Origin: Atribacterota bacterium
Lineage (GTDB): Bacteria; Atribacterota; Phoenicimicrobiia; Phoenicimicrobiales; Stramentimicrobiaceae
Assembly: GCA_028717805.1 (NCBI GenBank)
Contig: JAQUNC010000024.1
Location: forward strand, 1-35,471
Direction of reading: 5' to 3'
Length of the DNA stretch: 35,471 nucleotides
Of the stretch, positions 1,882 to 30,919 are shown one piece after another. Position 1 is the first letter of the stretch; every line of letters begins with the position of its first letter. The notes below the pieces were generated by a model that saw nothing but the letters and a program-made list of their open reading frames with translations, searched no databases and was not told the DNA's origin. The position numbers and the translations under genes are program-made.

Positions 1882-1887
1882 TATAAT
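1882..1887 (+). promoter_or_regulatory. Possible -10 box for a leaderless transcript
   Basis: A perfect TATAAT lies seven bases before the ATG at 1895, so transcription would begin at or next to the start codon. No Shine-Dalgarno sequence is visible there. The matching -35 region (about 1859-1864) is weak. In such AT-rich DNA a chance match is possible. Confidence 0.3.
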
Positions 1888-1894
1888 TTAAACT

Positions 1895-3787: not shown

Positions 3788-3811
3788 AAATATTTTTAGA
3801 AGAAAATTACT

Positions 3812-5998: not shown

Positions 5999-6051
5999 GT
6001 TATTAGCATTATACCACTCTATAAGAAAGCTTAATAGGAGGCTAGGTGCCT

Positions 6052-7263: not shown

Positions 7264-7287
7264 TAAAAAATAAAAAAGGAGTTAGAG

Positions 7288-8115
7288 ATGAATAAAGAAA
7301 AAGTAGAAAGAAACCAGGAATTAATCAAAAAATCCAAACAGGTCATCAAGGAAGCATTTGAGAAATATGATCCACGCAAATGTGCCATTACCTGGACGGG
7401 AGGAAAGGATTCTACCACAAATTTATGGATTGTACGTCAGGTCTGTGTGGAAGAAAATATTCCTCTACCCCAGGTTATTACCATCGATGAAGGAGATGCC
7501 TTTCCGGAAATTACCGATTTCTTGGTCAGTGTTTCTAAGGTATGGCATATTGACTTAAAATGGTTATGCAATTTTGATGTATTATCTGCTTGTTTGAGTC
7601 ATCTGGGAAACACAGTTCAAGTAAAACGTCTTAACAAAAGAAATCAGGAAGAGTTAAAGCGAATAGAGTTTATTGAAGATTCCTTTGTATTTGAAGCAGA
7701 GTCTTATGCTGGGAATCATTTAATGAAAACAGTAGTGCTTAATCAATATATTGAAGAAAGCGGTGCAGAACTTATCTTTATGGCTTTACGACGTGATGAA
7801 CAGGTAGCCCGAAAAGAAGATGAATATTTCACGCACAAAGAAGGAGGTTATCTCATGCCCGAGCATACCCGTGTTTCTCCCATTCTACATTTTACTGAAA
7901 GAGATATCTGGGATAATACCCACCTGCACAATCTTCCCTATTGCTCTCTCTACAAGATAGGCTATCGTTCCTTAGGAGCCAGAAGCAGTTCCAATCCTGG
8001 TGATATTGGCGTTCCTGCTTGGGAACAAGACTTAGAAAATGTTCCTGAGCGAGCAGGGAGAAGACAGGATAAAGAGAAAGCCATGGAAAGGTTGAGAAAG
8101 TTGGGCTATATGTAA
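7288..8115 (+). CDS. PAPS reductase / CysD-family PP-loop protein
   Basis: The 275-residue protein has the PP-loop ATP-pyrophosphatase motif TGGKDST near residue 38, the hallmark of the family that includes 3'-phosphoadenylylsulfate reductase and the CysD subunit of sulfate adenylyltransferase. IGYRSLGARSSSNP near residues 227-240 resembles the CysD segment after the substrate site. The catalytic ECG-type C-terminal Cys of APS/PAPS reductases and the cysteine pairs of Fe-S APS reductases are absent, so reduction is unlikely. Adenylation of sulfate or a sulfur compound is more consistent. No CysN partner is present. It is flanked by two sulfatase-fold genes in the same transcription unit, and its C-terminal RLRKLGY resembles the tail of the downstream sulfatase-fold protein. 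The start is ATG 7288 after AAGGAG. Confidence 0.75.
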   Translation: MNKEKVERNQELIKKSKQVIKEAFEKYDPRKCAITWTGGKDSTTNLWIVRQVCVEENIPLPQVITIDEGDAFPEITDFLVSVSKVWHIDLKWLCNFDVLSACLSHLGNTVQVKRLNKRNQEELKRIEFIEDSFVFEAESYAGNHLMKTVVLNQYIEESGAELIFMALRRDEQVARKEDEYFTHKEGGYLMPEHTRVSPILHFTERDIWDNTHLHNLPYCSLYKIGYRSLGARSSSNPGDIGVPAWEQDLENVPERAGRRQDKEKAMERLRKLGYM

Positions 8116-8194
8116 ATGAGAGGGATATATTCCCTGTATTACAGTTTGGAGTAGTTATATTTCTCTTTGTTAAGAATTCAGAAAGGAATGAATC

Positions 8195-9457
8195 ATGAAA
8201 GAACAAAACATCATTATTATTAGCTTAGATGAAGTTCGCCCGGATCATCTAAGCTGTTATGGTTATCAGAAAATTGTAACCCCGGCCATTGATCAGATGG
8301 CGCGTGAAGGGGTAAGGTTCAACCAATGTTTTTCCTCAGCAGATTTCACACCTATTGCCATGGGCTCGGTGATAACTGGTAAATATCCTAATAAACATGG
8401 TGTAAGAGATGCCTATTCTCATTTATCTGATCCTACAATTGCCACTATCTTAAAGGAAGATGGTTATCAAACTGCTGGTTTGGTGGGGAATGGATTACTA
8501 TCCAGGCAACATGGATTTGCTCAGGGATTTGACTTTTTCAATGAAACTTCCAAAGAAACCAGTTGGCTGGAAATTATATATCCCAATTCTGGAGTAGATG
8601 AGATATTTTATGAAGGCAACTATTGGGTGGAAGAATTTTTTAAATGGCTGAAGAAAAATTTTCAAAAGAAATTTTTCATGTGGGGACATCTTTATGAAAC
8701 ACATGAAGGCTCCGGCGTCTCTTTAGTTAAGAGAGGATTAATAAGCCAGGAGGAATCATCAGAATTTGATTATTATGATGCCAAGATAAAGATGGCTGAT
8801 GAAAAACTGATTCGTCGATTAATCAGCACATTAAAGGAATTAAATATCTATGATGAAACTACCATTGTTGTGATGAGTGATCATGGAACTAATTTAGGGG
8901 AACATCCAGTAAAAGATATTCCCTGGAGGAAGAAGGGGACTCGTTATCCCCAACATACCACAATGTATGACCATGATTTGCATGTTGCTATGATCATCAA
9001 AGGACCTGGTTTTCCTGCCGGTAAGGTTATTAATGGAATGGTTAGGTCTATTGATTTAGTTCCTACTCTATTGGAACATATTGGAATCTCTTCTCAAACC
9101 TATGATTTTGATGGACAATCCTGGTTGCCTTTGCTTCAAAATGACCAGAATCGTGATGAAGTGTACTCTGAAGATCTCTTTGAACCCAGAGGATTAGGTG
9201 CCATCCACTCTCTTCGTACTCCCGAATATAAATTCATGCGGAATCTAACCCTGGGCGAAGAGGCATATTTTGATTTGAAGAATGATCCTGGTGAACTAAA
9301 AAATATTAAAGAGGAAATAGATCAAGAAAAATTGATCAAGATTAGAAAAAGGCTAAATTCCTTTCTATTTACTAAGGTAGTTAGTCAAAAAGGATTTAGC
9401 CAGGAAGAAAAAGAAGCTATTAATCAGCGTTTACGTGGACTGGGGTATATAGAATAG
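8195..9457 (+). CDS. Second sulfatase-fold hydrolase/transferase lacking the formylglycine motif
   Basis: The 420-residue protein has the sulfatase fold. IISLDEVRPDHLSCYGY supplies Asp12 as metal ligand, VVMSDHGTNLGEH gives the second metal set, and TTMYDHDLHVAMIIKGPG is a typical late segment. At the nucleophile position it reads TPIAMGSVITG, with Thr52 replacing Cys/Ser and Met replacing Arg, so it departs from C-x-P-x-R in the same way as the first sulfatase-fold protein. The two are only distantly alike, so this is not a recent duplication. No signal peptide is seen. The ribosome site AAAGGA precedes ATG 8195. It ends in RLRGLGYIE, a tail often found in sulfatases. The gene lies 79 bases after the PP-loop gene, probably in the same operon. 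Confidence 0.75.
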   Translation: MKEQNIIIISLDEVRPDHLSCYGYQKIVTPAIDQMAREGVRFNQCFSSADFTPIAMGSVITGKYPNKHGVRDAYSHLSDPTIATILKEDGYQTAGLVGNGLLSRQHGFAQGFDFFNETSKETSWLEIIYPNSGVDEIFYEGNYWVEEFFKWLKKNFQKKFFMWGHLYETHEGSGVSLVKRGLISQEESSEFDYYDAKIKMADEKLIRRLISTLKELNIYDETTIVVMSDHGTNLGEHPVKDIPWRKKGTRYPQHTTMYDHDLHVAMIIKGPGFPAGKVINGMVRSIDLVPTLLEHIGISSQTYDFDGQSWLPLLQNDQNRDEVYSEDLFEPRGLGAIHSLRTPEYKFMRNLTLGEEAYFDLKNDPGELKNIKEEIDQEKLIKIRKRLNSFLFTKVVSQKGFSQEEKEAINQRLRGLGYIE

Positions 9458-9562
9458 ATTAATAAATTTAAATTAACTGATAAAGAAGGTGATTTTATAG
9501 TAATAAATACTTTTTTGTATTTTGTTTGAAATATTAAAAATTCATTGGAGGTTCAGTTAGTA

Positions 9563-10537
9563 ATGAGAAAATTCTATATTATTTCAATATTATTGATCTT
9601 TTTTTCGTTTTTTTTGATTTTCAGCTCATTAGCACAAGAATATCCCTCTAAACCTATTCAAGGAGTTATTTCTCTCTCAGCAGGAGGCACTATGGATGTA
9701 ATTGTAAGAGGTATGGCTCCATTTATGGAAGATTATTTAGGGCAACCGCTAGTTTTAACAAACGAAGCTGGTGCTAATGGTACAGTTGCTGTTGCACATG
9801 TTGCTGCATCTAAGCCGGATGGATATACCTTTGGATGGTGTAATATGCCTACCATTAACATCCATTATCAAATGAGAGATTTGCCTTACACGCCTGATGA
9901 TTTTGAGTATGTTGGTTCCCCAATGCCTTATGAATATGCTGTTGTTGTTAGACCAGATGAGCCATGGAAAGAAAATTGGGAAAGCTTTATCCAATATGCT
10001 AAAGATCATCCTAATATGGTTACCTATGGTGTTCCGGGAATTGGCTCAACTAATCATTTAACCATGGCATATATTGGTATGAAAGAAAATATAAGTTGGA
10101 ATGCAGTTCCTTTTAAAGGAGATTCAGAGGCAGTTGCTGCAGTTTTAGGAGGACATGTTGATTGTGCTGAAACTGCAACTATTCCAATGCTTTCACCAAC
10201 TCTCGCAGGGCAGTTGAAAGCTTTGGTTGTGGGAAGTAAGCGCAGATTAGATTTTGTACCAGATATCTCTACGCTAGAAGAAAAAGGTTATGGATTTTTC
10301 CAATTTTCTTGTATTGGCATGATACTTCCTAAGAATACTCCGGAAAATATCAGGCAGAAACTTGAAAGTGCTATTGAATTTGCTGTAAATCAAGATGAAG
10401 TACAGGAAATGGCTAAAAATGTTTGGCAGGTAAGATTAGATTTTAAAAACGGTGAAGAGTACAAAGAACTTTTATTAGAATATGGTACATTTTGGGGTGG
10501 AGTATTAAAAGAACTAGGAATGTTAAAGGATCAGTAA
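9563..10537 (+). CDS. Tripartite tricarboxylate transporter substrate-binding protein (TctC family)
   Basis: The 324-residue protein starts with a signal peptide (RKFYIISILLIFFSFFLIFSS, cleavage probably near SSLAQ/EYPSKP, residue 25). The family pattern follows: YPSKPIQGVISLSAGGTMD, then NEAGANGTVAVAHVAASKPDGYTFGW, and later GSTNHLTMAYI and GHVDCAETA. These periplasmic proteins capture carboxylates and related anions for TctA/TctB. I chose ATG 9563, 11 bases after GGAGG. The upstream TTG at 9545 would place extra residues ahead of the signal peptide. A long hairpin follows before tctB, which may raise the amount of this protein relative to the membrane subunits. The substrate is unknown. Confidence 0.85.
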   Translation: MRKFYIISILLIFFSFFLIFSSLAQEYPSKPIQGVISLSAGGTMDVIVRGMAPFMEDYLGQPLVLTNEAGANGTVAVAHVAASKPDGYTFGWCNMPTINIHYQMRDLPYTPDDFEYVGSPMPYEYAVVVRPDEPWKENWESFIQYAKDHPNMVTYGVPGIGSTNHLTMAYIGMKENISWNAVPFKGDSEAVAAVLGGHVDCAETATIPMLSPTLAGQLKALVVGSKRRLDFVPDISTLEEKGYGFFQFSCIGMILPKNTPENIRQKLESAIEFAVNQDEVQEMAKNVWQVRLDFKNGEEYKELLLEYGTFWGGVLKELGMLKDQ

Positions 10538-10584
10538 AACCATAAATTGTTTTCTAAAAGATCATATAATATAAGGTTTTATAT

Positions 10585-10660
10585 TGATAATTCCTAACTC
10601 CTAATCATTTCTTTAATCTAACAAATTACTTGTTATGGTTAAAGGAGTTAGGAATTATCA
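10585..10660 (+). repeat. Long perfect inverted repeat after tctC
   Basis: An 18-base perfect inverted repeat has arms at 10585-10602 and 10643-10660. Inside, further pairing is possible: TTTAA with TTAAA, and TAACAA (10619-10624) with TTGTTA (10630-10635). The whole segment can therefore form one long hairpin of about 75 bases. No T-run follows, so it is not a standard terminator. An RNA element protecting the upstream tctC message, or a small mobile palindrome, are the likely explanations. The rest of the gap (10538-10874) shows nothing else. Confidence 0.75.
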
Positions 10661-10874
10661 TAGAACTATCGGGTATTAATACTTATGGAATTTAATACAA
10701 ATATAATCAATAAAATCAAATATTATATAAATAGTTTGAAGTAGATAGTTAAATTATTAAAAATAATAATAAAGCAGTATTTATATTGAATACATAGATA
10801 TTTACTAATTGATATATCTCTAAAATACATCAAGATGTTAAAGCAATGCTAGGAGTAAATTAAGGAGGTAATGA

Positions 10875-11354
10875 TTGAGAATCAATAAAGATATTTTAAT
10901 TTCAATATTACTAGTGATGTTTTGTTTGGTAAATTATTTTTATCTAATACCTACTCAGGTTATAAGACATGGATCCTCAGCAAACTATCCTTATATGGTT
11001 ATTACTTTTTTGTTTATTTTTGTGTTAGTTTATACTTTTCTTTCTTTTAAAAAAAGGATAAGCCCCGATTCAAATTATATAAATATTTCTTTTTCAAATA
11101 AACAATATATTTTTAAAAATTTTATTATATTATTGATGATGATATTTTATGTATGTTTTATTGAATCGTTTGGGTTTATACTAATTTCATTTTTATTTAT
11201 ATTAATAGCTATGATGGTATATGGTTTAAGAGACTATTTCAGAGTATTAATAATTTCAATTTTATTTCCAACATTTATTTCTTATATTTTTAGAATCTTA
11301 TTAAAATCAAACTTGCCAGGAGGAATAATTGAGCAGATTATTTTTGGATGGTAA
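10875..11354 (+). CDS. Tripartite tricarboxylate transporter small membrane subunit (TctB family)
   Basis: The 159-residue hydrophobic protein has about four membrane helices: near residues 8-25, 40-58, 78-100 and 105-145 (the last a long split stretch). Size, topology and place between tctC and tctA fit the poorly conserved TctB family. The start is TTG 10875, six bases after AAGGAGG. An ATG at 10871 opens only a five-codon frame. The next gene, an alcohol dehydrogenase, starts 56 bases later, which is unusual because tctB is normally followed directly by tctA. Confidence 0.7.
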   Translation: MRINKDILISILLVMFCLVNYFYLIPTQVIRHGSSANYPYMVITFLFIFVLVYTFLSFKKRISPDSNYINISFSNKQYIFKNFIILLMMIFYVCFIESFGFILISFLFILIAMMVYGLRDYFRVLIISILFPTFISYIFRILLKSNLPGGIIEQIIFGW

Positions 11355-11410
11355 GTATATTTTATGCATTGAAAATATAATTAATATTGCTATTAGAGGA
11401 GGATTAACTA

Positions 11411-12577
11411 GTGGATGACATTGAATATTACTTTAATTTCCCACAAAGAATAATTAACAAATGGAGAGTAATTAACAAAATTGGAATTATTTTAAAAAGT
11501 TATGACTTTAATAAGATTATGATAGTAACTGATAAAGGAATAGCAAAATCTGGTTTAATTCCTGATGTTGAACAATCATTAAAAGAAAACAATATTAAAT
11601 ACACTATTTTCAGTGAAGTAAAATCTAATCCTGATATCAACACAGTTAATATCGGGAAAAAATTAGCTCAAAAAGATAACATAGATTGTTTATTAGGTAT
11701 TGGTGGAGGGAGTTGTATAGATGCTGCAAAAGCTATTGCAATTGTTTTAACAAACGATGCTTCTATAGAAAAATATGAAGGTTTAGATAAATATGAAAAT
11801 AATCCTCTTCCCATTATAGCTGTTCCAACAACTGCTGGAACAGGAAGTGAATCAACGCCTTCAGCAGTTATAACGGACAGTATAAGGAAGAATAAAATGT
11901 CGATATTTAGTATTAGAGGATTGCCAATTTTAGCTATTTTAGATCCAAGTGTATTGAAAAGCTTAAGTGCTAACTTAGCAGCCGCTACAGGTTTAGATGC
12001 ATTATGTCATGCTATTGAGTCTTACACTAGTCTAAAATCAACATATTTAACAGATTCCATTTCATTAAAGGCTATTGAGCTAATAGGAAAATATATAAGA
12101 ATTTTTGTTGCCAATAGAAGTAATGAAATTGCAGCCCAAGCAATGTTGACTGCAAGCAATCTAGCTGGTATTTCTTTTTCCCATACCTTTTTAGGAAATG
12201 TTCATGCTTTATCCCATCCAATTGGAGGTTATTACGACGCTCCACATGGAGTTATAAATTCAATTTTACTTCCACATGTTATGAAATTTAACTTAATTAG
12301 TAATCCTGAAAAATTTAAAAATATTGCTGTTTCATTAGGAGAGAATATCAATGATATAACTATTTTGGAAGCAGCGAATAAATCAATAAAAGCTGTTAAT
12401 GATTTAATGATAGATTTGGGTATTCCAAAATATTTAGATGAAGTGGGTCTCAAAAAAGAGCACATTGAAGAAATCAGTGAAATTGCAAAAAGAAGCAGAA
12501 ATGCCTCAGTTAATCCCAGAGATACACAAATCAATGATTTTAAACAAATACTTTTAGATGCAATAAGCTCTGAGTAA
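11411..12577 (+). CDS. Iron-containing alcohol dehydrogenase
   Basis: The 388-residue protein is a group III (iron-dependent) NAD(P)-linked alcohol dehydrogenase. LGIGGGSCIDAAKAIA (GGGS at 98-101) binds the cofactor, and PTTAGTGSE at 140-148 is the family block. The iron ligands are predicted as Asp196, His200, His265 and His279 from the LDALCHAIE and NVHALSHPIGGYYDAPHG blocks, with the family spacing. It would interconvert an alcohol and an aldehyde. Members include 4-hydroxybutyrate dehydrogenase and the sulfoacetaldehyde reductase SarD of taurine degraders, either of which could pair with the downstream aminotransferase. The start is GTG 11411 after AGAGGAGGA. It sits inside the TctCBA operon, suggesting it acts on the imported compound or its product. 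Confidence 0.85.
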   Translation: MDDIEYYFNFPQRIINKWRVINKIGIILKSYDFNKIMIVTDKGIAKSGLIPDVEQSLKENNIKYTIFSEVKSNPDINTVNIGKKLAQKDNIDCLLGIGGGSCIDAAKAIAIVLTNDASIEKYEGLDKYENNPLPIIAVPTTAGTGSESTPSAVITDSIRKNKMSIFSIRGLPILAILDPSVLKSLSANLAAATGLDALCHAIESYTSLKSTYLTDSISLKAIELIGKYIRIFVANRSNEIAAQAMLTASNLAGISFSHTFLGNVHALSHPIGGYYDAPHGVINSILLPHVMKFNLISNPEKFKNIAVSLGENINDITILEAANKSIKAVNDLMIDLGIPKYLDEVGLKKEHIEEISEIAKRSRNASVNPRDTQINDFKQILLDAISSE

Positions 12578-12621
12578 GTATAAAAATTAAATAATATTTA
12601 TTTTTTGTATTTTTATAAAGC

Positions 12622-12673
12622 ATTTTTTATCATTTGTTTTGGTTTATTTAAATATATCAATGTGATAAAAAAT
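12622..12673 (+). repeat. Inverted repeat between the dehydrogenase and tctA
   Basis: Perfect 11-base arms, ATTTTTTATCA (12622-12632) and TGATAAAAAAT (12663-12673), are separated by 30 bases. The arms are AT-rich, so the hairpin is weak. It may modulate expression between the two genes or be a chance palindrome. Confidence 0.4.
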
Positions 12674-12729
12674 ATAGTTTTATATCAATATCAGATCAAT
12701 AATAAGTTAATAAATTTCGGAGGCCATTA

Positions 12730-14253
12730 ATGTTGTCAGAAATTATAAAAGGATTTTTGCTTTCTATACAACCTCTAAATATGTTTGGGATTTTATTTGG
12801 TTATCTTGTTGGAATTTTTGTTGGTGCATTACCTGGACTTACAGGTGTAATGGCCATAGCAATCATGCTTCCTTTAACTTATAAGTTACCAGGGCTTCTT
12901 TCAATAGCCGCTTTAATGGGATGTTATAAAGGCGCAACTTATGGAGGTTCTATTTCTGCAATTTTAATAAACACTCCAGGAACACCAGAAGCTGCTGCTA
13001 CATCGCTTGATGGTCATCCATTAGCAGAGAGAGGAGAAGTGCTTAGAGCGTTAGAAATGGCTTTGATTGCTTCTATTATTGGTGGAACAATAAGCAATAT
13101 TATTACTCTTTTGACAACGATGCCAATAGCCAAGATTGCATTGTCTTTTGGACCAGTCGAAATAGCTAGCTTAATACTTTTCTCCTTAACAATTATTGCA
13201 GCTACTTTAGGAAATAGTTTGATTGAAGTAGTGAAAGGTTTGATATCAGCAGGTTTAGGTTTGTTTTTTGCGATGATTGGCTTAGATATTATGACAACTA
13301 CCAGACGATATTGTTTCGGTATTTTAGACTTAGATAGAGGATTAGGATTGGTTCCAGTCTTAATAGGTTTCTTAGCATTATCTGAGGTTTTAATTCAAAG
13401 TGAGATATTAATTAAAAGATATAGTCTAGTGAGAAAAGATAAATGGGGTTCTATCGATTTAACCTTTTCGTTATATTTAAAAGAAAAAATAAATTGGAAA
13501 ACTAGGTTCAGAGATATTAGATATTGTTTTAAAGATATACTAAAGTCTTCTATTATTGGTACTTTTGTTGGAGCTCTTCCAGGATTAGGGGCACCTACTG
13601 CTGCGTTTCTTTCCTATGGTGAAGCTAAAAGGACTTCTAAACACCCAGAAAATTTTGGTAAAGGTGAAATTATTGGTGTAGCAGCTCCTGAAGCAGGTAA
13701 CAATGCAGTTTGCGCTTCTAGTCTAATACCATTAGTAACTCTGGGTATCCCTGGTAGTGTAACAGCAGCAGTTTTGTTAGGTGCTTTTATGATTCATGGT
13801 ATGATGCCTGGCCCAATGCTAATGATTACTCACCCAAGTACTCTTTATGGATTATTTTTTTTAATGCTTTGGACAGATCCCCTTGGTGGACTAGTAATTG
13901 GTGTTCCATTTATACATGCAGCAAAGTTATTTATAGCAAAAATAAAGAAGAATTTTCTTCTTCCAATTATAATAATTTTGTGTTTTATAGGTTCGTATGG
14001 AATTGCATTTAGTGTATTTGATATGAAAATTGTCATTTTTTTTGGCGTATTAGGATATTTAATGAAGATTTTTAATCTTGATTTATCTGCCTTCTTAATA
14101 GCTTTTATCCTTGGTCCAATTCTAGAAGAAAACGTAAGATTAGCATTAATTATTTCACACAATAATCCAGGGGTATTTATTAGAAGTCCAATTGCTATTT
14201 TTTTCTATTTAATATCTCTTTTTTCTCTACTGTATTCCTTAAAAAAGAAATAA
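12730..14253 (+). CDS. Tripartite tricarboxylate transporter large membrane subunit (TctA family)
   Basis: The 507-residue protein has about 12 membrane helices and the two internal family repeats. GYLVGIFVGALPGLTGVMA comes near residue 24, with YGGSISAILINTPGTPEAAAT after it. The second copy is IGTFVGALPGLGAPTAAFLSY near residue 277, with GVAAPEAGNNA and TLGIPGSVTAAVLLGAF after it. TctA forms the sodium- or proton-coupled channel that takes ligand from TctC. The start is ATG 12730, six bases after CGGAGG. It is separated from tctB by the dehydrogenase gene, but all three parts of the transporter are intact. The substrate class could include carboxylates or sulfonated carboxylates. Confidence 0.9.
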   Translation: MLSEIIKGFLLSIQPLNMFGILFGYLVGIFVGALPGLTGVMAIAIMLPLTYKLPGLLSIAALMGCYKGATYGGSISAILINTPGTPEAAATSLDGHPLAERGEVLRALEMALIASIIGGTISNIITLLTTMPIAKIALSFGPVEIASLILFSLTIIAATLGNSLIEVVKGLISAGLGLFFAMIGLDIMTTTRRYCFGILDLDRGLGLVPVLIGFLALSEVLIQSEILIKRYSLVRKDKWGSIDLTFSLYLKEKINWKTRFRDIRYCFKDILKSSIIGTFVGALPGLGAPTAAFLSYGEAKRTSKHPENFGKGEIIGVAAPEAGNNAVCASSLIPLVTLGIPGSVTAAVLLGAFMIHGMMPGPMLMITHPSTLYGLFFLMLWTDPLGGLVIGVPFIHAAKLFIAKIKKNFLLPIIIILCFIGSYGIAFSVFDMKIVIFFGVLGYLMKIFNLDLSAFLIAFILGPILEENVRLALIISHNNPGVFIRSPIAIFFYLISLFSLLYSLKKK

Positions 14254-14559: not shown

Positions 14560-15921
14560 ATGGACAGTATAAGAAATGTTCCGAAACCAATCATTAAAAC
14601 AGGTATTCCCGGTCCAAAATCGCAAAAACTTCTACGGATGGAAGATCTATATGTACCAAAAGGCGTTTTTCATACAGTTCCGACATTTATCAATAGAGGA
14701 GAAGGAGCTGTAATTGAAGATATTGATGGAAATGTATTAATTGATTTTGCTGCTGGCATTAGTGTGTTAAATATAGGATACAGTCATCCTGAAGTTGTAG
14801 AAGCAGTGAAGGAACAATCAGAGAAATATTTTCATACCAGTTTTAGTGTAGTATTTAATGAACCCTACGTGCATTTAGCAAAGAAATTATGTGAGATTAC
14901 GCCAGGTAAATTTCCCAAAAAAACGACATTCTTCAATTGTGGTGCTGAAGCTGTAGAAAACGCCATTAAAATTGCCAGACAATATACGAAAAAGACAGAT
15001 ATTATCTGTTTTGAAGGTGCTTATCATGGAAGGACTCTTCTGACCATGACTCTTACCAGTAAACCAAGGCCTTATACTTTTGGTTTTGGTCCCTTTGCAC
15101 CGGGAGTGCATAAAATACCTTTTGCCAATTGTTATCGATGTGCCTATGGTTTAAGAAGAGAAACATGTAATTTGAGATGTGCTGAAAGGTTAGAAGAGAT
15201 ATTTGCTTCAGTAGTTGATGCAGAAAATGTTGCAGCAGTCATTGCTGAACCAATCCAGGGAGAGGGAGGTTTTACCTTACCCCCTGATGAATTTTTTACC
15301 AAGATCAAGAGAATTTGTGAAAAACACGATATTCTATTTATTGCCGATGAAATTCAAACCGGTTTTTGCAGAACCGGTAAAATGTTTGCCAGCGAATATT
15401 GGGATATAGTTCCTGATATTGTTACCATGTCCAAATCTCTTGCTGGAGGTTTGCCGCTGAGTGCTTTGACAGCCAGGACAGATATTATTGAAGTACCTCA
15501 GGTTGGTCAAATTGGTGGTACATTTTGTGGGAATCCGGTAGCATCAGTAGCAGCTTTGAAGGTAATAGAAGTAATGGAAAGAGATGATTTTGCTGGAAAA
15601 GCAAAAAAAATAGGAGAGATAATGAAACCCCGATTGGAAAGCATGAAGGAAAAATATGAGATAATAGGAGATGTAAGGGGTAGAGGAGCCATGATGGCTT
15701 TTGAATTAGTCAAAGATCGTAAGACTAAGTTGCCTGCAAAAGATGAAACAAAAGCTATTCAAAAATTAGCTTATGAAAATGGGCTTATACTACTTTCTGC
15801 AGGTATTTATAGTAATGTAATCAGAACACTAGTTCCCTTAGTAATTACTGAGGAACAGTTAAATGCGGGACTAGATATTATTGAAAAAGCTGTATCAGAA
15901 GTAAATAAGAGCTTAACATAA
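14560..15921 (+). CDS. Class III PLP-dependent aminotransferase (GabT-like)
   Basis: The 453-residue protein is an ornithine/4-aminobutyrate-type aminotransferase. GAEAVENAIKIAR and FEGAYHGRT bind the PLP phosphate. ADEIQTGFCRTG holds Asp263 for the pyridine nitrogen, and MSKSLAGGLPL holds the PLP lysine, Lys292. A small cysteine-bearing insertion, CYRCAYGLRRETCNLRC (Cys191, 194, 203, 207), occurs in some anaerobe GabT-like enzymes and could bind metal. Possible roles are deamination of 4-aminobutyrate, taurine or a related omega-amino compound. The iron dehydrogenase upstream could reduce the resulting aldehyde. The start is ATG 14560. AGGAGG lies 13 bases upstream, further than usual, but no better in-frame start exists. 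The substrate remains open. Confidence 0.85.
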   Translation: MDSIRNVPKPIIKTGIPGPKSQKLLRMEDLYVPKGVFHTVPTFINRGEGAVIEDIDGNVLIDFAAGISVLNIGYSHPEVVEAVKEQSEKYFHTSFSVVFNEPYVHLAKKLCEITPGKFPKKTTFFNCGAEAVENAIKIARQYTKKTDIICFEGAYHGRTLLTMTLTSKPRPYTFGFGPFAPGVHKIPFANCYRCAYGLRRETCNLRCAERLEEIFASVVDAENVAAVIAEPIQGEGGFTLPPDEFFTKIKRICEKHDILFIADEIQTGFCRTGKMFASEYWDIVPDIVTMSKSLAGGLPLSALTARTDIIEVPQVGQIGGTFCGNPVASVAALKVIEVMERDDFAGKAKKIGEIMKPRLESMKEKYEIIGDVRGRGAMMAFELVKDRKTKLPAKDETKAIQKLAYENGLILLSAGIYSNVIRTLVPLVITEEQLNAGLDIIEKAVSEVNKSLT

Positions 15922-16128: not shown

Positions 16129-16884
16129 TTGTCTGATATTCAAAATAAAACTAAGATTGAGGTAAAAAATTTAACCAAAAAATTTGGTGAACTTTTAGTC
16201 CTGGATAATATCAATTTTACTGTTGGTAATGGAGAATTATTATGTATTGTAGGTCCTACCGGTTGTGGCAAAACCACTTTTCTTAATCTATTATCAAATT
16301 TATTAGAACCAACTGATGGTAATATTTTCATTGACAATGAACATATACAACCAAAAAAGCATAATATTGCATTTGTTTTTCAGGAGTCCTCTTCACTTCC
16401 CTGGCGAACAGTAAAGCAAAACATTACCTACGGGATGGAGATTAAAAAAAGATTTTCCAAAGCAGAGATTGATTCTAAAGCAACAGAACTGATGGAGCTG
16501 GTAGGGCTTAAAGAGCTTACTAACCATTACCCACGTGATATTTCAGCCAGTATGGAACAAAGGGTAGCAATAGCTCGAGCATTTGCTGTTAATCCAGACC
16601 TTCTTTTGATGGATGAGCCCTATGGTCAGTTGGATGTAAAACTTCGTTATTATTTAGAAGATGAGTTAATTAAAATTTGGCAAAAATATAGAAATACAGT
16701 TATTTTTGTAACGCATAATATAGAAGAAGCAGTATATCTAGGTGAACGTACTTTAGTATTGAGCAACAAACCGACTACAGTTAAAACAGAAATTAAGGTG
16801 AACTTACCAAGACCTCGTAATTTTTTAGATCCAGAATTTATTAAAATTGTAAGGGAAATAACTCAATTAATTAAGTGGTGGTAG
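16129..16884 (+). CDS. ABC transporter ATP-binding protein, SsuB/TauB-like, with degenerate signature
   Basis: The 251-residue ATPase resembles nitrate/sulfonate/taurine importer subunits. Walker A is GPTGCGKTT (42-50), the Q-loop is at Gln85, Walker B is LLLMDEP with the catalytic Glu163, and the H-loop is THNIEEA with His196. The ABC signature, normally LSGGM-Q, is ISASMEQ (138-144), losing both glycines. This should weaken ATP hydrolysis at the site it completes on its partner. A second ATPase at 19895 has the opposite defect. The start is TTG 16129 after AAGGGGGT, giving MSDIQNK. It is the first gene of the importer set: ATPase, binding protein, two permeases, ATPase. Confidence 0.85.
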   Translation: MSDIQNKTKIEVKNLTKKFGELLVLDNINFTVGNGELLCIVGPTGCGKTTFLNLLSNLLEPTDGNIFIDNEHIQPKKHNIAFVFQESSSLPWRTVKQNITYGMEIKKRFSKAEIDSKATELMELVGLKELTNHYPRDISASMEQRVAIARAFAVNPDLLLMDEPYGQLDVKLRYYLEDELIKIWQKYRNTVIFVTHNIEEAVYLGERTLVLSNKPTTVKTEIKVNLPRPRNFLDPEFIKIVREITQLIKWW

Positions 16885-17088
16885 ATCTCGGTTTTTAAAG
16901 TCTTTCTATCAGAAACAGAATCAAAAATACTATTAAGGAAAGGAGGTTGGAATAACCTGATATTTGAACTGTATTCTGGATGGAAAGAATAAGTGGTACT
17001 AAATATTATACTAACTATGTTTTGGGGAAAAATTAACGAAGAATATAAATATTAAAATAAGATAAAAAAAATTAAGGAGGAAATTAAA

Positions 17089-18186
17089 ATGAAAACAGAT
17101 TGCAGTAGATATAGTAAATCAAACCTATCATTATTAATGCTTTGTATTATCTTAGTTCTTTTTTCTTTTTGTTTTATTGCTAGTGCTGAAAGCCAGGCAT
17201 TAAGAAAAATTACCGTAAGTCACCAACCCTGCTTTGATTCTTTTAATACATTCTGGGCAATCAAGAACGGTATTATGGAGAAAAATAATCTGGAGATAGA
17301 GATGATGTATTTCGATTCAGGTATGCCCCAGATTGAAGCGATACCTGCCAATGAATGGGTTATTGGACCGGTAGGAATTGTTCCAGCACTTTTTGCAGTC
17401 TTAAGGATGGATGTATATATTATTGCTGTAGCACATGATGAAAGTGGCTCTATGTCTGTCTTAGCTAGACCTGATAGCCCCATTTTTAAAACCAAAGGAT
17501 ATAATCCAGAATATCCAAATCTGTATGGTGATCCGGAAACGGTGAAGGGGATGACTGCTCTAGCTACAACTATTTCCACTTCTCATTATACCCTGGCAAG
17601 ATACCTGGATGATATTGGTTTATCAGAAAGCGACCTTAAGGTATTGAATCTTGAACAACCTCAAGCGGTTGCTGCCTTTGAGAGAGGAGAAGGTGATTTG
17701 GTTGGATTCTTCTCACCTTATAGCTACATAGGGAAAGCAAAAGGATGGAAAGAAGTTGCTAACGGTGCAGATACCGGGGCAAAAAGTTTGCTTGCCATTA
17801 TTTCCCCCAAGAAATGGGCAGATGAGAATGTAGATATCGTTGTTGACTTCTTAGATGCTTACTTTGAAGCACAAGAAGATTTAGTCAGACAGGGACCAGC
17901 ATTAGCAGATGAATATAAAAAATTCCTTATGGATTATAGTGCATTGGAAATAAGCGATGATAATGCCAGAGGTGATTTTGAAGATATTATATTCTATAGC
18001 ATAGAAGAACATATAGAGAATCTTGAGAATGGTAACTTTGAGAAATGGACCAAAGAATCTGCTGATTTCTTTTATGAAAAAGGCAGGTTTACCAAGGAAG
18101 ATAGAGATAAATTAGAAGAACTCCGTTTTGGTTATACCGATAAATTTATGAAATTAGTTGCTAAAAAGAGAGGGATCATTAATTAG
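17089..18186 (+). CDS. ABC transporter substrate-binding protein (NMT1/SsuA-like)
   Basis: The 365-residue exported protein has a signal peptide in residues 1-33 (hydrophobic LSLLMLCIILVLFSFCFIAS, cleavage probably near SAES). The mature part begins LRKITVSHQPCFDSFNTFWAIKNGIMEKNNLEIEM, typical of NMT1/THI5- and SsuA-like binding proteins of nitrate, sulfonate and taurine importers. A further typical block follows near residue 155 (GMTALATTISTSHYTLARYL). It would deliver a small anion to the two permeases downstream. The start is ATG 17089 after AAGGAGG. The preceding gap (16885-17088) contains another AAGGAGG near 16940 followed only by TTG GAA TAA. A strong hairpin follows the gene. Confidence 0.8.
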   Translation: MKTDCSRYSKSNLSLLMLCIILVLFSFCFIASAESQALRKITVSHQPCFDSFNTFWAIKNGIMEKNNLEIEMMYFDSGMPQIEAIPANEWVIGPVGIVPALFAVLRMDVYIIAVAHDESGSMSVLARPDSPIFKTKGYNPEYPNLYGDPETVKGMTALATTISTSHYTLARYLDDIGLSESDLKVLNLEQPQAVAAFERGEGDLVGFFSPYSYIGKAKGWKEVANGADTGAKSLLAIISPKKWADENVDIVVDFLDAYFEAQEDLVRQGPALADEYKKFLMDYSALEISDDNARGDFEDIIFYSIEEHIENLENGNFEKWTKESADFFYEKGRFTKEDRDKLEELRFGYTDKFMKLVAKKRGIIN

Positions 18187-18206
18187 CGGTTTGCATAATT
18201 GAGTGA

Positions 18207-18253
18207 TATGAATGTTTGGCAAAGAATGATTGTATCTTTGCCAAACATTCATA
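18207..18253 (+). repeat. Perfect hairpin after the ABC binding-protein gene
   Basis: A 19-base perfect stem (arms 18207-18225 and 18235-18253) closes a 9-base loop. It begins 21 bases after the stop codon of the binding protein and ends before the ribosome site of the first permease. No T-run follows, so it is not a standard terminator. It would block 3' exonucleases and allow high binding-protein and lower permease expression. Confidence 0.8.
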
Positions 18254-18280
18254 AGTATTAAAAATAAAAGGGTGGTAGAT

Positions 18281-19069
18281 GTGAATAACAGAGAAAAAGC
18301 TAAGGAAGGTAATTTATTCTGGGTATCATTTTTCAGTATTTTAATATTGATTTTAACGTGGCAGTTTATTGTCAGCTCGGGAATTGTACCTCATACCATG
18401 TTGGATTCACCGATATCTGTAATTAAACTATTTTTTGATAAACTAACTAATGTTAATCCAGATGGAGCTACTTTAGGTGCTCATATCTTGGCAAGTCTTC
18501 AGGCAATAATGCTTGGTTATCTTTTAGCACTTCTAATTGGTATTCCTCTTGGACTTTTAATGGGATGGTATGCAGTCATTGATGGTTTGGTTAGACCTAT
18601 TTTTGAATTAGTCAGACCTATTCCTCCAGTTGCCTGGATTCCTTTAGCAATATTTTGGTTTGGTATTGGAATGACTGGCAAAGTGTATATTATTTTTATT
18701 GGAGGACTGGTGCCTGCTGTAATCAATGCCTACACAGGGGTTTTAATGTCTAATCCCACCTTAATACAAATGGCTAAAACATACGGTGCTTCTAAATGGC
18801 AAATATTTAAAACCATATGTATCCCATCAGCATTGCCCATGATATTTGGTGCTTTGCAGGTAGCTTTAGCCATCTGCTGGACATGTCTTGTAGCAGCAGA
18901 GTTGTTAGCATCCGATGTTGGACTGGGATATTTAATTACCATGGGACGAAGGCTTTTATTACCCAAACTTGTCATTTTGGGAATGCTGATGTTAGGAGTA
19001 ACTGGTTTTATTATTGGCTATATTGTAGATAGAATCGAAAAACGTTTGGTATCGGGTTTGAGGAGGTAA
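18281..19069 (+). CDS. ABC transporter permease 1 (SsuC/TauC-like)
   Basis: The 262-residue inner-membrane protein has about six helices. The binding-protein-dependent EAA loop is visible near residue 165 (YGASKWQIFKTICIPSALP). PIFELVRPIPPVAWIPLAIFWFGIG is typical of the nitrate/sulfonate/taurine permease family. I chose GTG 18281, five bases after AGGGTGG. The longer frame back to 18230 would start inside the hairpin. The stop overlaps the ribosome site of the next gene. It probably pairs with permease 2 as a heterodimer, because each appears once. Confidence 0.85.
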   Translation: MNNREKAKEGNLFWVSFFSILILILTWQFIVSSGIVPHTMLDSPISVIKLFFDKLTNVNPDGATLGAHILASLQAIMLGYLLALLIGIPLGLLMGWYAVIDGLVRPIFELVRPIPPVAWIPLAIFWFGIGMTGKVYIIFIGGLVPAVINAYTGVLMSNPTLIQMAKTYGASKWQIFKTICIPSALPMIFGALQVALAICWTCLVAAELLASDVGLGYLITMGRRLLLPKLVILGMLMLGVTGFIIGYIVDRIEKRLVSGLRR

Positions 19070-19073
19070 TTTA

Positions 19074-19895
19074 ATGGATAGGATGAATTCCCAGGCTTTA
19101 AAACCATATCATAATATAATAAGCATTTTTCAAAATAGGAATATACTCAGTATTATCTCAATCATAAGTTTTATATTAATATGGGATTTTATTGTTGTTA
19201 GAGGGATCGCTGGTAGTTATTTGCCAAGACCCATTGAGGTATTTAATAGATTCTTATATATATTAAAAAATCCATTAGCAGGGAAAACTTTAGTAGAACA
19301 TTTATTAGTGAGTTTAAAAAGAGTTTTTGTAGCTTTTACAATATCTGTATTGTTTGGAATCCCCATTGGTGTTTTGATGGGTTTTAATCGCTATGCAAGA
19401 GCTATTATGAAACCTATTTTTGATCTATTTAAACCAATGCCACCTATTGCCTGGATATCTCTGGCTATCCTTTGGTTTGGTATTGGAGAAACTTCAAAAG
19501 TGTTTATTATATTTATTGGCTCTTTTGTTCCGATTGTCGTAAATTCTTATAATGGAATTCGCCTTGTCGAACCAGAATTATATGATGCCATTCGTATACT
19601 TGGTGCTGATTATTGGCAAGAACATCTACAAGTAACTTTTCCGGGATCATTTCCTGCTATATTTGCTGGTATACAGATTTCTCTCAGTATAGGATGGACC
19701 TGTGTATTGGCGGCAGAACTTGTAGGAGCCCGAGAGGGAATTGGATTTATTATTGTCATGGGCATGAATGTTGGGAATGTTGCCCAGATTATCGTAGGAA
19801 TGTTAGTTATTGCGTTAGTCTCATTTTTATTATCTATCGGATTAAAATATTTGGAAAGGTGGGTTTGTCCTTGGATGCAGCAGGAAATAGAATAG
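19074..19895 (+). CDS. ABC transporter permease 2 (SsuC/TauC-like)
   Basis: The 273-residue membrane protein is a paralogue of permease 1, with IFDLFKPMPPIAWISLAILWFGIG matching its family block. Its coupling loop is LGADYWQEHLQVTFPGSFP. ATG 19074 follows AGGAGG (19061-19066) by seven bases, and the ribosome site overlaps the end of permease 1. The stop codon TAG shares its last base with the GTG start of the second ATPase, so translation is probably coupled. Confidence 0.85.
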   Translation: MDRMNSQALKPYHNIISIFQNRNILSIISIISFILIWDFIVVRGIAGSYLPRPIEVFNRFLYILKNPLAGKTLVEHLLVSLKRVFVAFTISVLFGIPIGVLMGFNRYARAIMKPIFDLFKPMPPIAWISLAILWFGIGETSKVFIIFIGSFVPIVVNSYNGIRLVEPELYDAIRILGADYWQEHLQVTFPGSFPAIFAGIQISLSIGWTCVLAAELVGAREGIGFIIVMGMNVGNVAQIIVGMLVIALVSFLLSIGLKYLERWVCPWMQQEIE

Positions 19896-20659
19896 TGGAA
19901 GATTCAAATGTTATAGAGTGTATAAGTGTAAGTAAAAATTACAACATAGGTAAGAAGAATGAAATTAAGGTTTTAGAAAATATAAATATAACAGCTAAAA
20001 GTAATGAATTTGTAGTAATTCTAGGACCAGGTCAATCGGGCAAAACAACTCTTTTTAGATTAATTGCTGGTTTTGAAAGGCCAACTTCGGGTGATGTATA
20101 TGTAAATGGTAAGAAAGTTATTGGACCAAATCCACAAATTGGTTTTATTTTTCAAAAATATATGCTTTTTCCCTGGAAAACCGTGAGGGGTAATATAGAA
20201 ATGGGTCCAAAACTTACGGGTGTATCTAAAAAGAAAAGACAGGAGATTGCAGATTATTATATCAAATTAGTAGGATTGGAAGGTTTTGAAAATTACTATC
20301 CTAATCAGTTAAGCGGAGGAATGAAGCAACGTGTAGGCATAGCTCGTTCTTATGCCAATGGAGCAAATATAATGTTAATGGACGAACCCTTTGGGCAGCT
20401 GGATGCCCAGACTCGTATGTTTATGGAAAAAGAGATCATTCGAATGTGGAATAAAGAAAAAAAGACTGTTTGTTTTGTTACTAATAATGTGGATGAAGCT
20501 GTATTTCTTGCTGATAGGATTATTTGTATCGAGGGTAAACTACCAGGTAGAATGGATAAAATTTATAATATTAATTTACCCAGACCTAGGGAATTTACAG
20601 ATATTTCATTTATTGAATTAAGAGAAAAAATAAAGAATAGTATGGAGCTGGTTCTTTAA
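19895..20659 (+). CDS. ABC transporter ATP-binding protein 2, with Asn in the H-loop
   Basis: The 254-residue ATPase is SsuB/TauB-like. Walker A is GPGQSGKTT (44-52), the signature LSGGMKQ (139-145) is perfect, and Walker B is LMDEP. The H-loop His is replaced by Asn197 (FVTNNVDEA, where FVTHDVDEA is typical). It complements ATPase 1: one composite site would combine the intact Walker/H-loop of ATPase 1 with this perfect signature, and the other would combine Asn197 with the degenerate signature. GTG 19895 overlaps the permease stop by one base, with AGGA nine bases upstream. A TTG at 19871 after GGTGGG is a possible earlier start. The reading frame is open further upstream, but that part lies over the permease gene in another frame. 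Confidence 0.85.
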   Translation: MEDSNVIECISVSKNYNIGKKNEIKVLENINITAKSNEFVVILGPGQSGKTTLFRLIAGFERPTSGDVYVNGKKVIGPNPQIGFIFQKYMLFPWKTVRGNIEMGPKLTGVSKKKRQEIADYYIKLVGLEGFENYYPNQLSGGMKQRVGIARSYANGANIMLMDEPFGQLDAQTRMFMEKEIIRMWNKEKKTVCFVTNNVDEAVFLADRIICIEGKLPGRMDKIYNINLPRPREFTDISFIELREKIKNSMELVL

Positions 20660-20961
20660 GAATCAGTTTTGAAGTATTATATAAGTTTTTTCATTCCAAT
20701 CAGTCCTTCTTTCTGGTCAGCATGTCTGATAAAAAGAGAAAAAAGAAATGTAATACTGATTAAGAAAGGAACATTTTTTACTGAAAAAAGAAATATATTA
20801 TTTCAGTATTAAGGAGATTATATAAGCTACGGTTACTGCCGATATGATGTTAATAAGTAACAGTATAAGAAAATTAGGTCTTAATTGTTTAAATTAGAGA
20901 TGCTTCTATTCATTTAAAGATTTTGATGAGTTATGTTAATCAGAAACAGGGAGGTTATTTT
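20660..20961. other. Intergenic region before sat
   Basis: A gap of 302 bases contains an 8-base inverted repeat TACTGAAA/TTTCAGTA (20779-20786 and 20801-20808) with a 14-base loop and no T-run. No clear promoter consensus was found. The Sat reading frame can be extended to an ATG at 20923, but the strong ribosome site is further in. Confidence 0.4.
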
Positions 20962-22224
20962 ATGAATTTTACCGGACATGGCAACAAGCCTATTAAGGAG
21001 TTAATACTAGAATCTAATACTGCAAAAAAAATAGTAAAGAAGTTAAAACATATTCCAATTTCACAAAGAGTAGCCAGGGAGTGCATTGATTTAGCTTATG
21101 GATTCTTTTCTCCATTAGAAGGTTTTATGAATTCTAACACTCTAAACAGTGTCTGCCAGAAAATGAAGTTAATAGATGGAACTCTCTGGCCGATACCGAT
21201 TTTATTGGATATGGATAGAGATACTATCAATAAAAATAACTTAAAAATAGGAGACCAGATTATTTTAAGTTTTCAAAACCAGCCTTTGGCTTTGTTAGAT
21301 ATTGAAGAGATCTATCAATACGATAAGCAAAAAATTGCCCAAGCAGTATTAGGTACAACCGAAGAGAAACACCCGGGTGTGAAGATGTTTGATGAATGGA
21401 GTGACTATTATCTTGCTGGTCCGATTAAATTAGTTAATGAGCCAATATTTCAACCACCTTTTGATCGGTTTTGGTATACTCCTCTTCAATTACGTAAAAT
21501 CTTTCAAGAGAAGGACTGGGAACGTATTGTTGCTCATCAAACACGGAATGTTCCCCATACCGGTCATGAGTGGCTAATGAAAGGAGCCTGGTTTTCAACA
21601 AATGCTAATCTTGCTGTTGAAAGACTAAAAACCGGCATTTTGGTTAGTTGTATCATTGGACCTAAACGCATGGGTGATTATATTGATGAGGCAATTCTTT
21701 TAGGTCAGCAGCAATTGAATGATTCAAATTATTTTAATCAAGAAATACATATGGTCTCCTTTGTCTTATGGGATATGCGTTATGCCGGACCCAAAGAGGC
21801 ATTATTGCATGCTATTATCAGATCTAATTTAGGATGTACTCACCATATGTTTGGGAGAGACCATGCTGGTGTAGGTTCCTATTATGATCCTTACGATGCA
21901 CACCGCATCTTTGATAAGATACCCGAGGGAAGTTTAAATATCAAACCCATACGCGTACTGGAGTGGTGGTATTGTCCTATTTGCCAGGAAGTGACTTATT
22001 CAGGACTCTGTGGACATACCAGAGAACGACAGAATTTTAGTGGGACAATGATTCGTAGCATTATTCAAGATAAGGTTCAACCTACTAATTTATTGATGAG
22101 ACCAGAAGTATTTCAAGTAATGTTGGAATCTGCTGAGAAATACGGATTTGGTTCCCCCTTCTGTAACGAGAAATATCTAAAGCAGCGCCAACCCGTCTTC
22201 AGACTATTTTCCATAAATTCATAA
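20962..22224 (+). CDS. sat: Sulfate adenylyltransferase (ATP sulfurylase, homo-oligomeric type)
   Basis: The 420-residue enzyme makes APS and pyrophosphate from ATP and sulfate, or runs in reverse. The sulfurylase nucleotide motif is HQTRNVPHTGHEWLM (QxRN and HxxH). GRDHAGVGSYYDPYDAH is the second active-site block. A zinc-binding CPIC plus CGH pattern near residues 330-345 is followed by NFSGTMIRSI, as in bacterial and archaeal dissimilatory-type Sat. No APS kinase domain is fused. The start is ATG 20962, seven bases after GGGAGG. The upstream ATG 20923 lacks one. No aprAB or CysN is nearby, so the fate of APS is unknown. The PP-loop protein at 7288 is the only candidate partner in this window. 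A decayed copy of its C-terminus lies at 25390. Confidence 0.9.
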   Translation: MNFTGHGNKPIKELILESNTAKKIVKKLKHIPISQRVARECIDLAYGFFSPLEGFMNSNTLNSVCQKMKLIDGTLWPIPILLDMDRDTINKNNLKIGDQIILSFQNQPLALLDIEEIYQYDKQKIAQAVLGTTEEKHPGVKMFDEWSDYYLAGPIKLVNEPIFQPPFDRFWYTPLQLRKIFQEKDWERIVAHQTRNVPHTGHEWLMKGAWFSTNANLAVERLKTGILVSCIIGPKRMGDYIDEAILLGQQQLNDSNYFNQEIHMVSFVLWDMRYAGPKEALLHAIIRSNLGCTHHMFGRDHAGVGSYYDPYDAHRIFDKIPEGSLNIKPIRVLEWWYCPICQEVTYSGLCGHTRERQNFSGTMIRSIIQDKVQPTNLLMRPEVFQVMLESAEKYGFGSPFCNEKYLKQRQPVFRLFSINS

Positions 22225-27998: not shown

Positions 27999-28745
27999 AT
28001 GAAATTTGGTGTAGTTCAGTTTCCCGGTTCAAATTGTGATTATGATTGTTATTATTCCTTAAAATATATTTTAAAGGTTCCCACTGGATTGCTTTGGCAT
28101 AAAGAGACAAATATTACTGGTTATGATTGTATTGTCCTGCCAGGGGGATTTTCGTATGGTGATTATTTAAGAGTTGGGGCAATAGCCCGTTATGCTCCTG
28201 TTATGAGATCCATTCTGGATTTTGCCAGAGAAGGTGGTCTGGTGATAGGTATTTGTAATGGCTTTCAAATTTTGACTGAAGCGAGACTATTGCCAGGTTC
28301 TTTAATAAGGAATAATTGTCTTCATTTTACCTGTAAATGGCAGTATATTCGTGTGGAAAACATCAATACACCTGTTACCAACTTGTGCCAAAAAGAACAA
28401 GTATTAAAGATACCTATTGCTCATGGTGAAGGCTGCTATTATGCTGATCAAAATACGATAGATGAAATAGAGGCGAATAATCAGGTTTTGTTTCGTTACT
28501 GTAGCAATCAAGGGAAAATTACTCAAGAAGCGAATCCCAATGGTTCCCTATATAATATTGCTGGAATTTGTAATAAGGGAAGAAATATTTTCGGTCTGAT
28601 GCCACATCCGGAAAGATGTATGGAAGATTGCTTGGGTTCAATAGATGGTCGTCTTATATTTAAGTCTGTGATAAATTATTTAAGAATGGATATCTTTCCT
28701 CTAAATAACTGTGGTAACAGGAGTACTCATCTATGCCAAAGTTGA
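27999..28745 (+). CDS. purQ: FGAM synthase glutaminase subunit PurQ
   Basis: The 248-residue class I glutamine amidotransferase starts [16 protein letters not shown]. The catalytic Cys is in GICNGFQIL, and the His/Glu partners are in [11 protein letters not shown]. It supplies ammonia to PurL. The last 13 bases overlap the start of the first purL. It ends with TGA. Confidence 0.93.
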
Positions 28746-30919
28746 AACAGAATAAAATATGGCAGAAGTGGAGTCTAACCATTGATGAATATCAATTAAT
28801 ATGTCAGGCTCTAGGGCGTGAGCCCAATGAACTGGAAATGGGTATTTTTGCGGTCATGTGGAGTGAGCACTGCAGTTATAAAAGTACCAAAGCTTTGTTG
28901 AAAAAATTACCAAGCAAAGCTCCTTGGGTGATTCAGGGACCGGGAGAGAATGCAGGCATAATTGATATTGGTGAAGAAATTTTAGTAGTCATGAAGATGG
29001 AAAGCCATAATCACCCTTCAGCGGTTGAACCGTTTCAGGGTGCTGCCACCGGAGTAGGTGGTATTCTGCGGGATATTTTTACCATGGGTGCCAGACCTAT
29101 TGCTCTTCTGGATTCCCTTCGTTTTGGTGATTTTCAAAAAGATTTAACACAATATTTATATAATGGTGTAATAGGAGGTATTTCCTTTTATGGAAATTGT
29201 ATTGGAGTACCTACTGTCGGTGGAGAAACTGTCTTTTCAGAAAGTTATCAAGGGAATATCTTAGTAAATGTAATGTGTGTAGGTTTAGTAAAGAAGAAAG
29301 CAGTAATTCTTGCAGTGGCAAGCGGAATAGGTAATTCTATTATCTTAATTGGAGCAAAGACTGGACGTGATGGGATAGGTGGAGCTGCTTTTGCCTCAGT
29401 ACAACTTACCGAACAATCAGATAAGGATCGACCAGCTGTTCAAATAGGAGACCCTTTTGCTGGTAAATTATTACTTGAAGCATGTCTGGAATTAGCACAA
29501 TTCCAAGAAGTTATTGGTTTGCAGGATTGCGGTGCAGCCGGTTTAGCTAGTTCTCTAAGTGAAATGGCTGCCAGAGGAGAAAGTGGAGTTGAGGTTGAGT
29601 TGTCAAATGTTCCGCAAAGAGAAGCTAATATGAGTCCTTCTGAAATCATATTATCTGAATCACAGGAAAGAATGATAGTAGTAGTAAAAAAGGGAAAAGA
29701 AGAAAGGGTTTTATCAACCTTAAAACGATGGGATTTAGATTCAGCTATTATTGGACAAGTCACTGATGATCAGAAATTTACCATTAAAGATAATAAACAA
29801 GTTGTAGCATGTATTCCCATTCACTCACTGGTAGAAGGAGCCCCTACTTTCAGAAGAAAAATAAAAAAACCACAATGGCTGGAAAGAATAAATTACATTA
29901 ATTGGAAAAAAATTAAAGAATTTGATCATTATAATGAAATCTTGCTTGATATGCTAATTTCTCCTAATTTATCAAGCAAGGAAGAAATTTATCAACAGTA
30001 TGACTATCAGGTTCAAACTAATACTATTATCCCACCTGGAGATGATGCTGCAGTTTTAAGGATTAAAGGAAGCAAGAAAGCCCTTGCTTTAACTACTGAA
30101 GGTAATGGCAGATATTGTTTCCTTGATCCATTGCAAGGAGCAAGAATTGCAGTAGCTGAAGCAGCCAGAAATTTATCCTGTAAAGGTGCGTTACCAAGGG
30201 CTATTACTGATTGTCTTAATTTTGGAGCACCGGAGAATAGCGATAGTTACTGGCAACTAGTACAGGCGATAAGAGGTTTGTCGGAAGCCTGTCGATTTTT
30301 TGAAATCCCGATAATCAGTGGTAATGTTAGTCTGTATAATGAAAATGAAGGCAAGCCAATATATCCCACACCTGTTATTGGCATGGTTGGGATAATTGAT
30401 GATTACCGGTGTATTTGTACTTTAGATTTTAAAAAGGAAAATGATTTGATTTTTCTGCTTGGTGAAAATTTAGAGGAATTAGGAGGGAGTGAGTATCTGA
30501 AAATTGCGCATAAACTAATATGCGGTAAGCCTCCTGTTCTTGATTTTAGAAAGGAGAAAAAAATACAATCATTCTGTCGAAAAGTGATTGAAAAAGGAAT
30601 TATTTCTTCAGCACACGATTGTTCCTTGGGAGGGATAGCCATTGCTTTAGCTGAATCATGCCTGAAAAGCAGTCTGGGAGCAGAGGTAGAACTAAAATCT
30701 GATATTCGTTCTGATTGCTGTTTATTTGGGGAAACACAATCCCGCATAATAGTCAGTATTGATCCCTCTAATATTGATAACTTTATTAAGATAGCCCGAA
30801 GTGATAAGATACCATTTCAAAGAATTGGAATGGTCAAGGGAAATCATTTAAAAATTAATCAATGGGTTAATTTACCATTAGAGGAACTGGAAAAATCATG
30901 GCGGTGTAAAGGCAATTAA
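28733..30919 (+). CDS. purL: FGAM synthase subunit PurL, copy 1 (divergent)
   Basis: The 728-residue synthetase subunit of the PurSQL type makes FGAM from FGAR, ATP and ammonia. [12 protein letters not shown] holds the family's active-site His, and [20 protein letters not shown] is the metal/ATP block. The second-half blocks are [24 protein letters not shown] and [11 protein letters not shown]. Two usually acidic positions are altered relative to the neighbour: Glu456 for Asp in T-[DE]-GNGRY, and Leu632 for Asp in HDCS-x-GG. Both halves are complete. It overlaps purQ by 13 bases. It could be a less active or specialised copy, or a partner of copy 2. Confidence 0.9.

Follow-up and report, generated by a model that had tools for sequence, protein, structure and literature searches.

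The ATP-binding cassette (ABC) importers TauABC and SsuABC are among the closest families, for permeases and ATPases alike, to the proteins of an operon that we analysed in Atribacterota bacterium assembly GCA_028717805.1 (contig JAQUNC010000024.1; the whole stretch of 35,471 nucleotides is called the window, and the operon occupies positions 16129-20659 of its forward strand). While TauABC and SsuABC have a single canonical ATPase and a single permease, each of which forms a homodimer in the classical TauABC arrangement, the operon encodes two distinct ones of each. Its five genes, in the order ATPase 1 (AT1), substrate-binding protein, permease 1 (PM1), permease 2 (PM2) and ATPase 2 (AT2), constitute a type I ABC importer of the nitrate/sulfonate/taurine group. 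The cyanobacterial bicarbonate and nitrate importers CmpBCD and NrtBCD belong to the same group, likewise have two different ATPases and are among the nearest solved structures by fold for AT1 and AT2 (the nearest to AT2 also by sequence). They differ in having one permease type and an extra regulatory domain on CmpC and NrtC, and in our alignments CmpC and CmpD show a canonical signature and a canonical H-loop His. In ABC transporters, each ATP is sandwiched between two subunits, of which one supplies the Walker A and B motifs and the H-loop and its partner the signature. Judged by this geometry and by the conservation described below, we consider it quite probable that the operon encodes a type I importer for organosulfur compounds whose ATPases co-evolved as an obligate heterodimer, with a consensus ATP site and a degenerate one.

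Degenerate sites are familiar from exporters: TM287/288, BmrCD, TAP and ABCG5/G8 also pair a consensus with a degenerate composite site, and the last of these likewise joins signature and Walker A changes (PMC7756269). In contrast to the operon studied here, these exporters fuse their transmembrane and ATPase domains into a single chain, and many have lost the catalytic Glu of the degenerate site, a loss seen in neither AT1 nor AT2. Among importers, the fused ATPases RbsA/NupO have one degenerate site (PMC11466899) but belong to a different family, with two domains per chain and a second Walker A devoid of Lys. The sequence-only reading that drew attention to the operon had supposed such asymmetry to be rare among importers, yet it is less so than assumed, because ATPase pairs of the same genome that resemble LivG/LivF of branched-chain amino acid importers (L247-L253, e.g., L248:3610-5192) show an analogous complementation. 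Their LivG-like partners combine an LPYG or IAYG signature with an H-loop His and their LivF-like partners LSGGEQQ with an H-loop Gln. These proteins belong to another ABC family. Their substitutions are Tyr and Gln where AT1 and AT2 have S-x-S and Asn, their Walker A is normal in both subunits, and LivG/LivF models are absent from the best 25 models for AT1 or AT2. Literature searches of open-access papers (subscription papers were outside their scope) turned up nothing relevant to LivG/LivF asymmetry or the AT1/AT2 family. Importers with asymmetric sites are thus already known as a kind; the version in the taurine-type group is new in its distinct residue pattern and very strict pairing.

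Complementary changes in the two ATPases

AT1 (16129-16884, an open reading frame on the forward strand, as are all operon genes) has an intact Walker A (GPTGCGKTT, residues 42-50), Walker B (LLLMDEP, with catalytic Glu163) and H-loop (VTHN, with His196 at 16714-16716), combined with a degenerate signature, ISASMEQ (residues 138-144, 16540-16560). Conversely, AT2 (19895-20659) has a Walker B with catalytic Glu164 and the consensus signature LSGGMKQ (residues 139-145, 20309-20329), but Asn197 (20483-20485) replaces the H-loop His. The residues named in the sequence-only reading all stand where it had placed them, and a third change, overlooked there, is the AT2 Walker A GPGQSGKTT (20024-20050) with Gln where Gly is usual, which falls in the composite site formed with the AT1 signature and containing Asn197. 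Such a division, with the signature altered in one subunit and the Walker motif and H-loop in its partner, is the pattern of degenerate-site heterodimeric transporters.

Only the mixed AT1/AT2 pair yields a complete site, whereas either homodimer would have two incomplete ones, and we infer from established ABC geometry that the subunits assemble as an obligate heterodimer that turns over ATP at one site. AT1 and AT2 would work only in this combination: the complete composite site, formed by the Walker A and B motifs and His196 of AT1 with the signature of AT2, would carry out hydrolysis, and the degenerate site, formed by the GPGQ Walker A and Asn197 of AT2 with the S-x-S-M signature of AT1, would most likely bind ATP and turn it over slowly or not at all, serving structure or timing. 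AlphaFold2 single-chain models of AT1 and AT2 (predicted local distance difference test scores of 89.9 and 91.0, respectively) are intact ABC folds near CmpC/CmpD and NrtC/NrtD.

Conservation, pairing and co-evolution

A scan of about 85,000 species genomes with an AT1 alignment, which gives a lower bound for the spread of orthologues, found AT1 orthologues among the matches listed at 52-65% identity, followed by a gap down to canonical ATPases at 33-41%. Their hosts include at least Desulfobacterota, Bacillota (Lachnospiraceae, Oscillospiraceae and Peptococcaceae), Spirochaetota and Planctomycetota. The S-x-S-M signature and the H-loop His are present in 60/60 distinct AT1 sequences, and all 58 distinct AT2 sequences have an [LI]SGGM signature, an H-loop Asn and a Walker A of the form G[PA]G[QLE][CS]GK, with Gln in nearly all. 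Across the 59 loci that hold both ATPases, one site always carries the three changes and the other never does; none of these loci has a pair with a single change or with consensus motifs throughout, so the co-occurrence that the sequence-only reading had asked homologues to show is borne out. None of the 72 canonical relatives put through the same alignment departs from SGG, His or a normal Walker A. Ascertainment bias through the signature motif was considered and rejected: in place of the signature, the contig scan used VGPTGCGK and MDEPYGQ, the latter of which could favour AT1-type D-loops, and the family genomes were searched with a whole-length profile.

In 199 genomes of a single family (taken as Desulfovibrionaceae), profile searches detected 51 AT1 and 52 AT2 genes. 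They form 50 pairs whose members share a strand and are no more than 5 kb apart; the three genes without a partner all lie in fragmented assemblies, and two of them are the AT1 and AT2 of one genome on different contigs. In the tree, an AT1 clade and an AT2 clade split jointly from canonical ATPases (branch support 92/87), which fits an old duplication, and PM1 and PM2 also form two matching sister clades (support 98 and 96, joint 91). Pairwise distances of AT1 and AT2 across 33 operons are correlated (Mantel r = 0.84, with 0/2000 permutations as high), though part of this correlation is owed to shared descent. Strict conservation, gene pairing and correlated divergence together argue for a co-evolved heterodimer rather than drift, as the sequence-only reading had proposed from the complementation of the motifs, and the matching permease clades are in line with this.

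A divergent pair, L197/L198, has ISAGMKQ and His in one partner and SGGM and Asn without the GPGQ Walker A change in the other, showing that the signature and H-loop changes travel together even when the Walker A change is absent. This divergent relative (L197:3107-6519 and L198) has one recognised permease, and in L197 adjoining genes resemble corrinoid methyltransferase components.

Binding-protein homologues occur in 46 of the 199 family genomes. Two operons (L091:8231-10538 and L133:3350-5569) carry two tandem binding-protein genes, and genome G458 encodes nine binding-protein homologues with one AT1/AT2 pair, which suggests that several binding proteins share one transporter core. In genomes G072 and G546, a TAG stop seems to interrupt the binding protein; judged by the coordinates in G072, it probably stems from an alignment running beyond the gene's own stop.

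Gene neighbourhood and candidate substrate

Directly upstream of the operon lies a class III aminotransferase of the gamma-aminobutyrate (GABA) transaminase family (14560-15921, forward strand; TIGR00700, 538.6 bits at a cut-off of 506.65), possibly a taurine or homotaurine transaminase, and directly downstream an ATP sulfurylase (20923-22224, forward strand; NF003166, 485 bits at a cut-off of 387); two sulfatases are encoded nearby. These sulfatases flank a PAPS-reductase-domain protein (7288-8115) in a group of genes at 6046-9457, downstream of a GntR regulator.

Loci with the same gene order as the window often contain genes resembling those of taurine degradation, namely a taurine-pyruvate aminotransferase-like gene in 9/17, alanine dehydrogenase (Ald) in 8/17 and a SarD-like sulfoacetaldehyde reductase in 3/17. 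Alanine dehydrogenase exceeds the cut-off of its family model, as does the sulfatase maturase mentioned below, while the other two names rest on resemblance: SarD-like proteins reach 476-485 bits against a cut-off of 700, and the taurine-pyruvate aminotransferase-like proteins reach 474-483 bits against 488 for a broad aminotransferase model. Where the binding-protein gene comes first, sulfatases are found at 11 of 31 loci, some with sulfatase maturases and TauE-like exporters; control loci have one sulfatase among 69. Loci with a third gene order have almost no sulfur- or taurine-type genes nearby. From this neighbourhood, taurine or a related organosulfur compound is most likely the substrate, an assignment that we make with moderate confidence.

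Alternative explanations

Several observations weigh against an organosulfur importer driven from a single site. Many loci have no sulfur genes nearby, and the aminotransferase of the window itself is of the GABA-transaminase rather than the taurine-pyruvate type; taken together, these two points indicate that the substrate probably varies. As for the motor, the catalytic Glu is invariant in the orthologues of AT1 and AT2 alike and the Walker A Lys is kept in both, so that the second site might hydrolyse ATP. Moreover, the exchange of His for Asn in the H-loop of the catalytic site of MRP1 retained transport (PMC7756269). Finally, the placement of AT2x, the Asn-bearing partner of the divergent pair, in the tree (approximately unbiased test, p-AU 0.436) is compatible with a single origin of the Asn in AT2 and AT2x as well as with a second one, and with more than one order of the three changes.

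The alternative that survives best accepts the asymmetric motor and assigns it a different substrate, such as aminoethylphosphonate or an amino acid, which we regard as possible though not favoured. A PbfA phosphonate lyase gene lies upstream in one deltaproteobacterial locus, L117 (655.6 bits at a cut-off of 525), and the corrinoid methyltransferase-like genes next to the L197 variant would also fit. An organosulfur substrate is favoured over these by the taurine-degradation-like genes at roughly every second locus with the gene order of the window, by the sulfatases at a third of binding-protein-first loci and by the two sulfatases and the ATP sulfurylase of the window itself.

It appears unlikely that both sites are catalytic, the odd residues being merely tolerated and the heterodimer spending two ATP per cycle like MalK2, even though not only the Glu and Lys named above but also the Q-loop Gln and D-loop Asp persist in AT1 and AT2 and the MRP1 result shows what an H-loop Asn can permit. 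Neutral tolerance would not yield the observed segregation of three changes into one site and none into the other at 59 loci, with none in 72 canonical relatives, and this counts against two equivalent sites.

Two permeases and two ATPases make two homodimeric cores arithmetically possible, so that AT1 and AT2 might not be partners and each might form a homodimer with its own permease. We hold such a pair of half-systems to be very improbable in view of the strict pairing of the ATPase genes and their correlated divergence; as a rule, there is also one binding protein per operon, and both homodimers would carry two incomplete sites. That a duplicated ATPase simply drifted or decayed at random in this one genome, as the duplication itself and the single sequence behind the original finding might have suggested, has a negligible probability. 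It is refuted by the invariance of the changes in the lineage of the window and in Desulfovibrionaceae, Desulfobacterales, Bacillota, Spirochaetota and Planctomycetota, where pairwise identities fall as low as 47-49%.

Operon layout and family assignment

The substrate-binding protein (17089-18186) has a signal peptide-like N-terminus and is a candidate member of the SsuA/taurine-binding superfamily, with a weak match to the SsuA/TauA-like type (TIGR01728, E value 8e-21, 74.5 bits at a cut-off of 163.5). Between its gene and that of PM1, the perfect 19-bp arms of an inverted repeat enclose a 9-nt loop (18207-18253, forward strand), likely a hairpin for mRNA processing or stability. PM1 (18281-19069, with an inferred start codon) and PM2 (19074-19895) belong to the TauC/BPD_transp_1 family by model matches. 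They match PF00528 with E values of 1.9e-21 and 1.3e-25, and among BPD_transp_1 proteins they are closest to TauC/SsuC, with TauC as the best model for both, though under its equivalog cut-off.

The ATPases are closest to TauB/NrtD/CmpD, with the qualification that sugar-importer ATPases score equally for AT1 among solved structures. For AT1, the best NCBIfam matches are SaoA and TauB with scores under their cut-offs, and we rejected an identity of the ATPases with SaoA based on their scores of 221.3 and 229.8 bits for the equivalog NF040729, whose curated cut-off is 360. The start codon of AT1 is TTG at 16129 (upstream sequence GGGGTAAAGGA), while AT2 probably starts with GTG at 19895, overlapping the PM2 stop codon, which gives its H-loop residue the number Asn197.

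Other features of the window

The window also contains genes resembling homocysteine methyltransferase, corrinoid activator and methionine synthase activation genes (257-4516), a set that may represent a split methionine synthase. At 9545-14253, we found genes of a tripartite tricarboxylate-type transporter whose small and large membrane subunits are separated by an iron alcohol dehydrogenase gene. One purine cluster contains two full-length purL-like genes in tandem (28733-30919 and 30969-33191), which are 51% identical.

Significance

Work on asymmetric ATP sites has been confined almost entirely to exporters, and the use that type I importers make of their two sites remains a matter of debate. 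Tentatively, and with less confidence than in the heterodimer itself, we suggest that the operon represents a previously undescribed family of organosulfur importers, spread widely over the phylogeny of anaerobes, whose strictly kept one-site motor would have evolved independently of LivG/LivF and of the exporters and maybe spends one ATP per cycle. An importer family with a fixed degenerate site and canonical homodimeric cousins would permit a direct comparison of the ATP cost per molecule. A taurine-respiring gut isolate has been reported to have no TauABC cluster and to depend most likely on TRAP transporters (PMC10507020). If the taurine assignment is true, the importer described here names an uptake route into the H2S-forming taurine metabolism of gut and sediment anaerobes.

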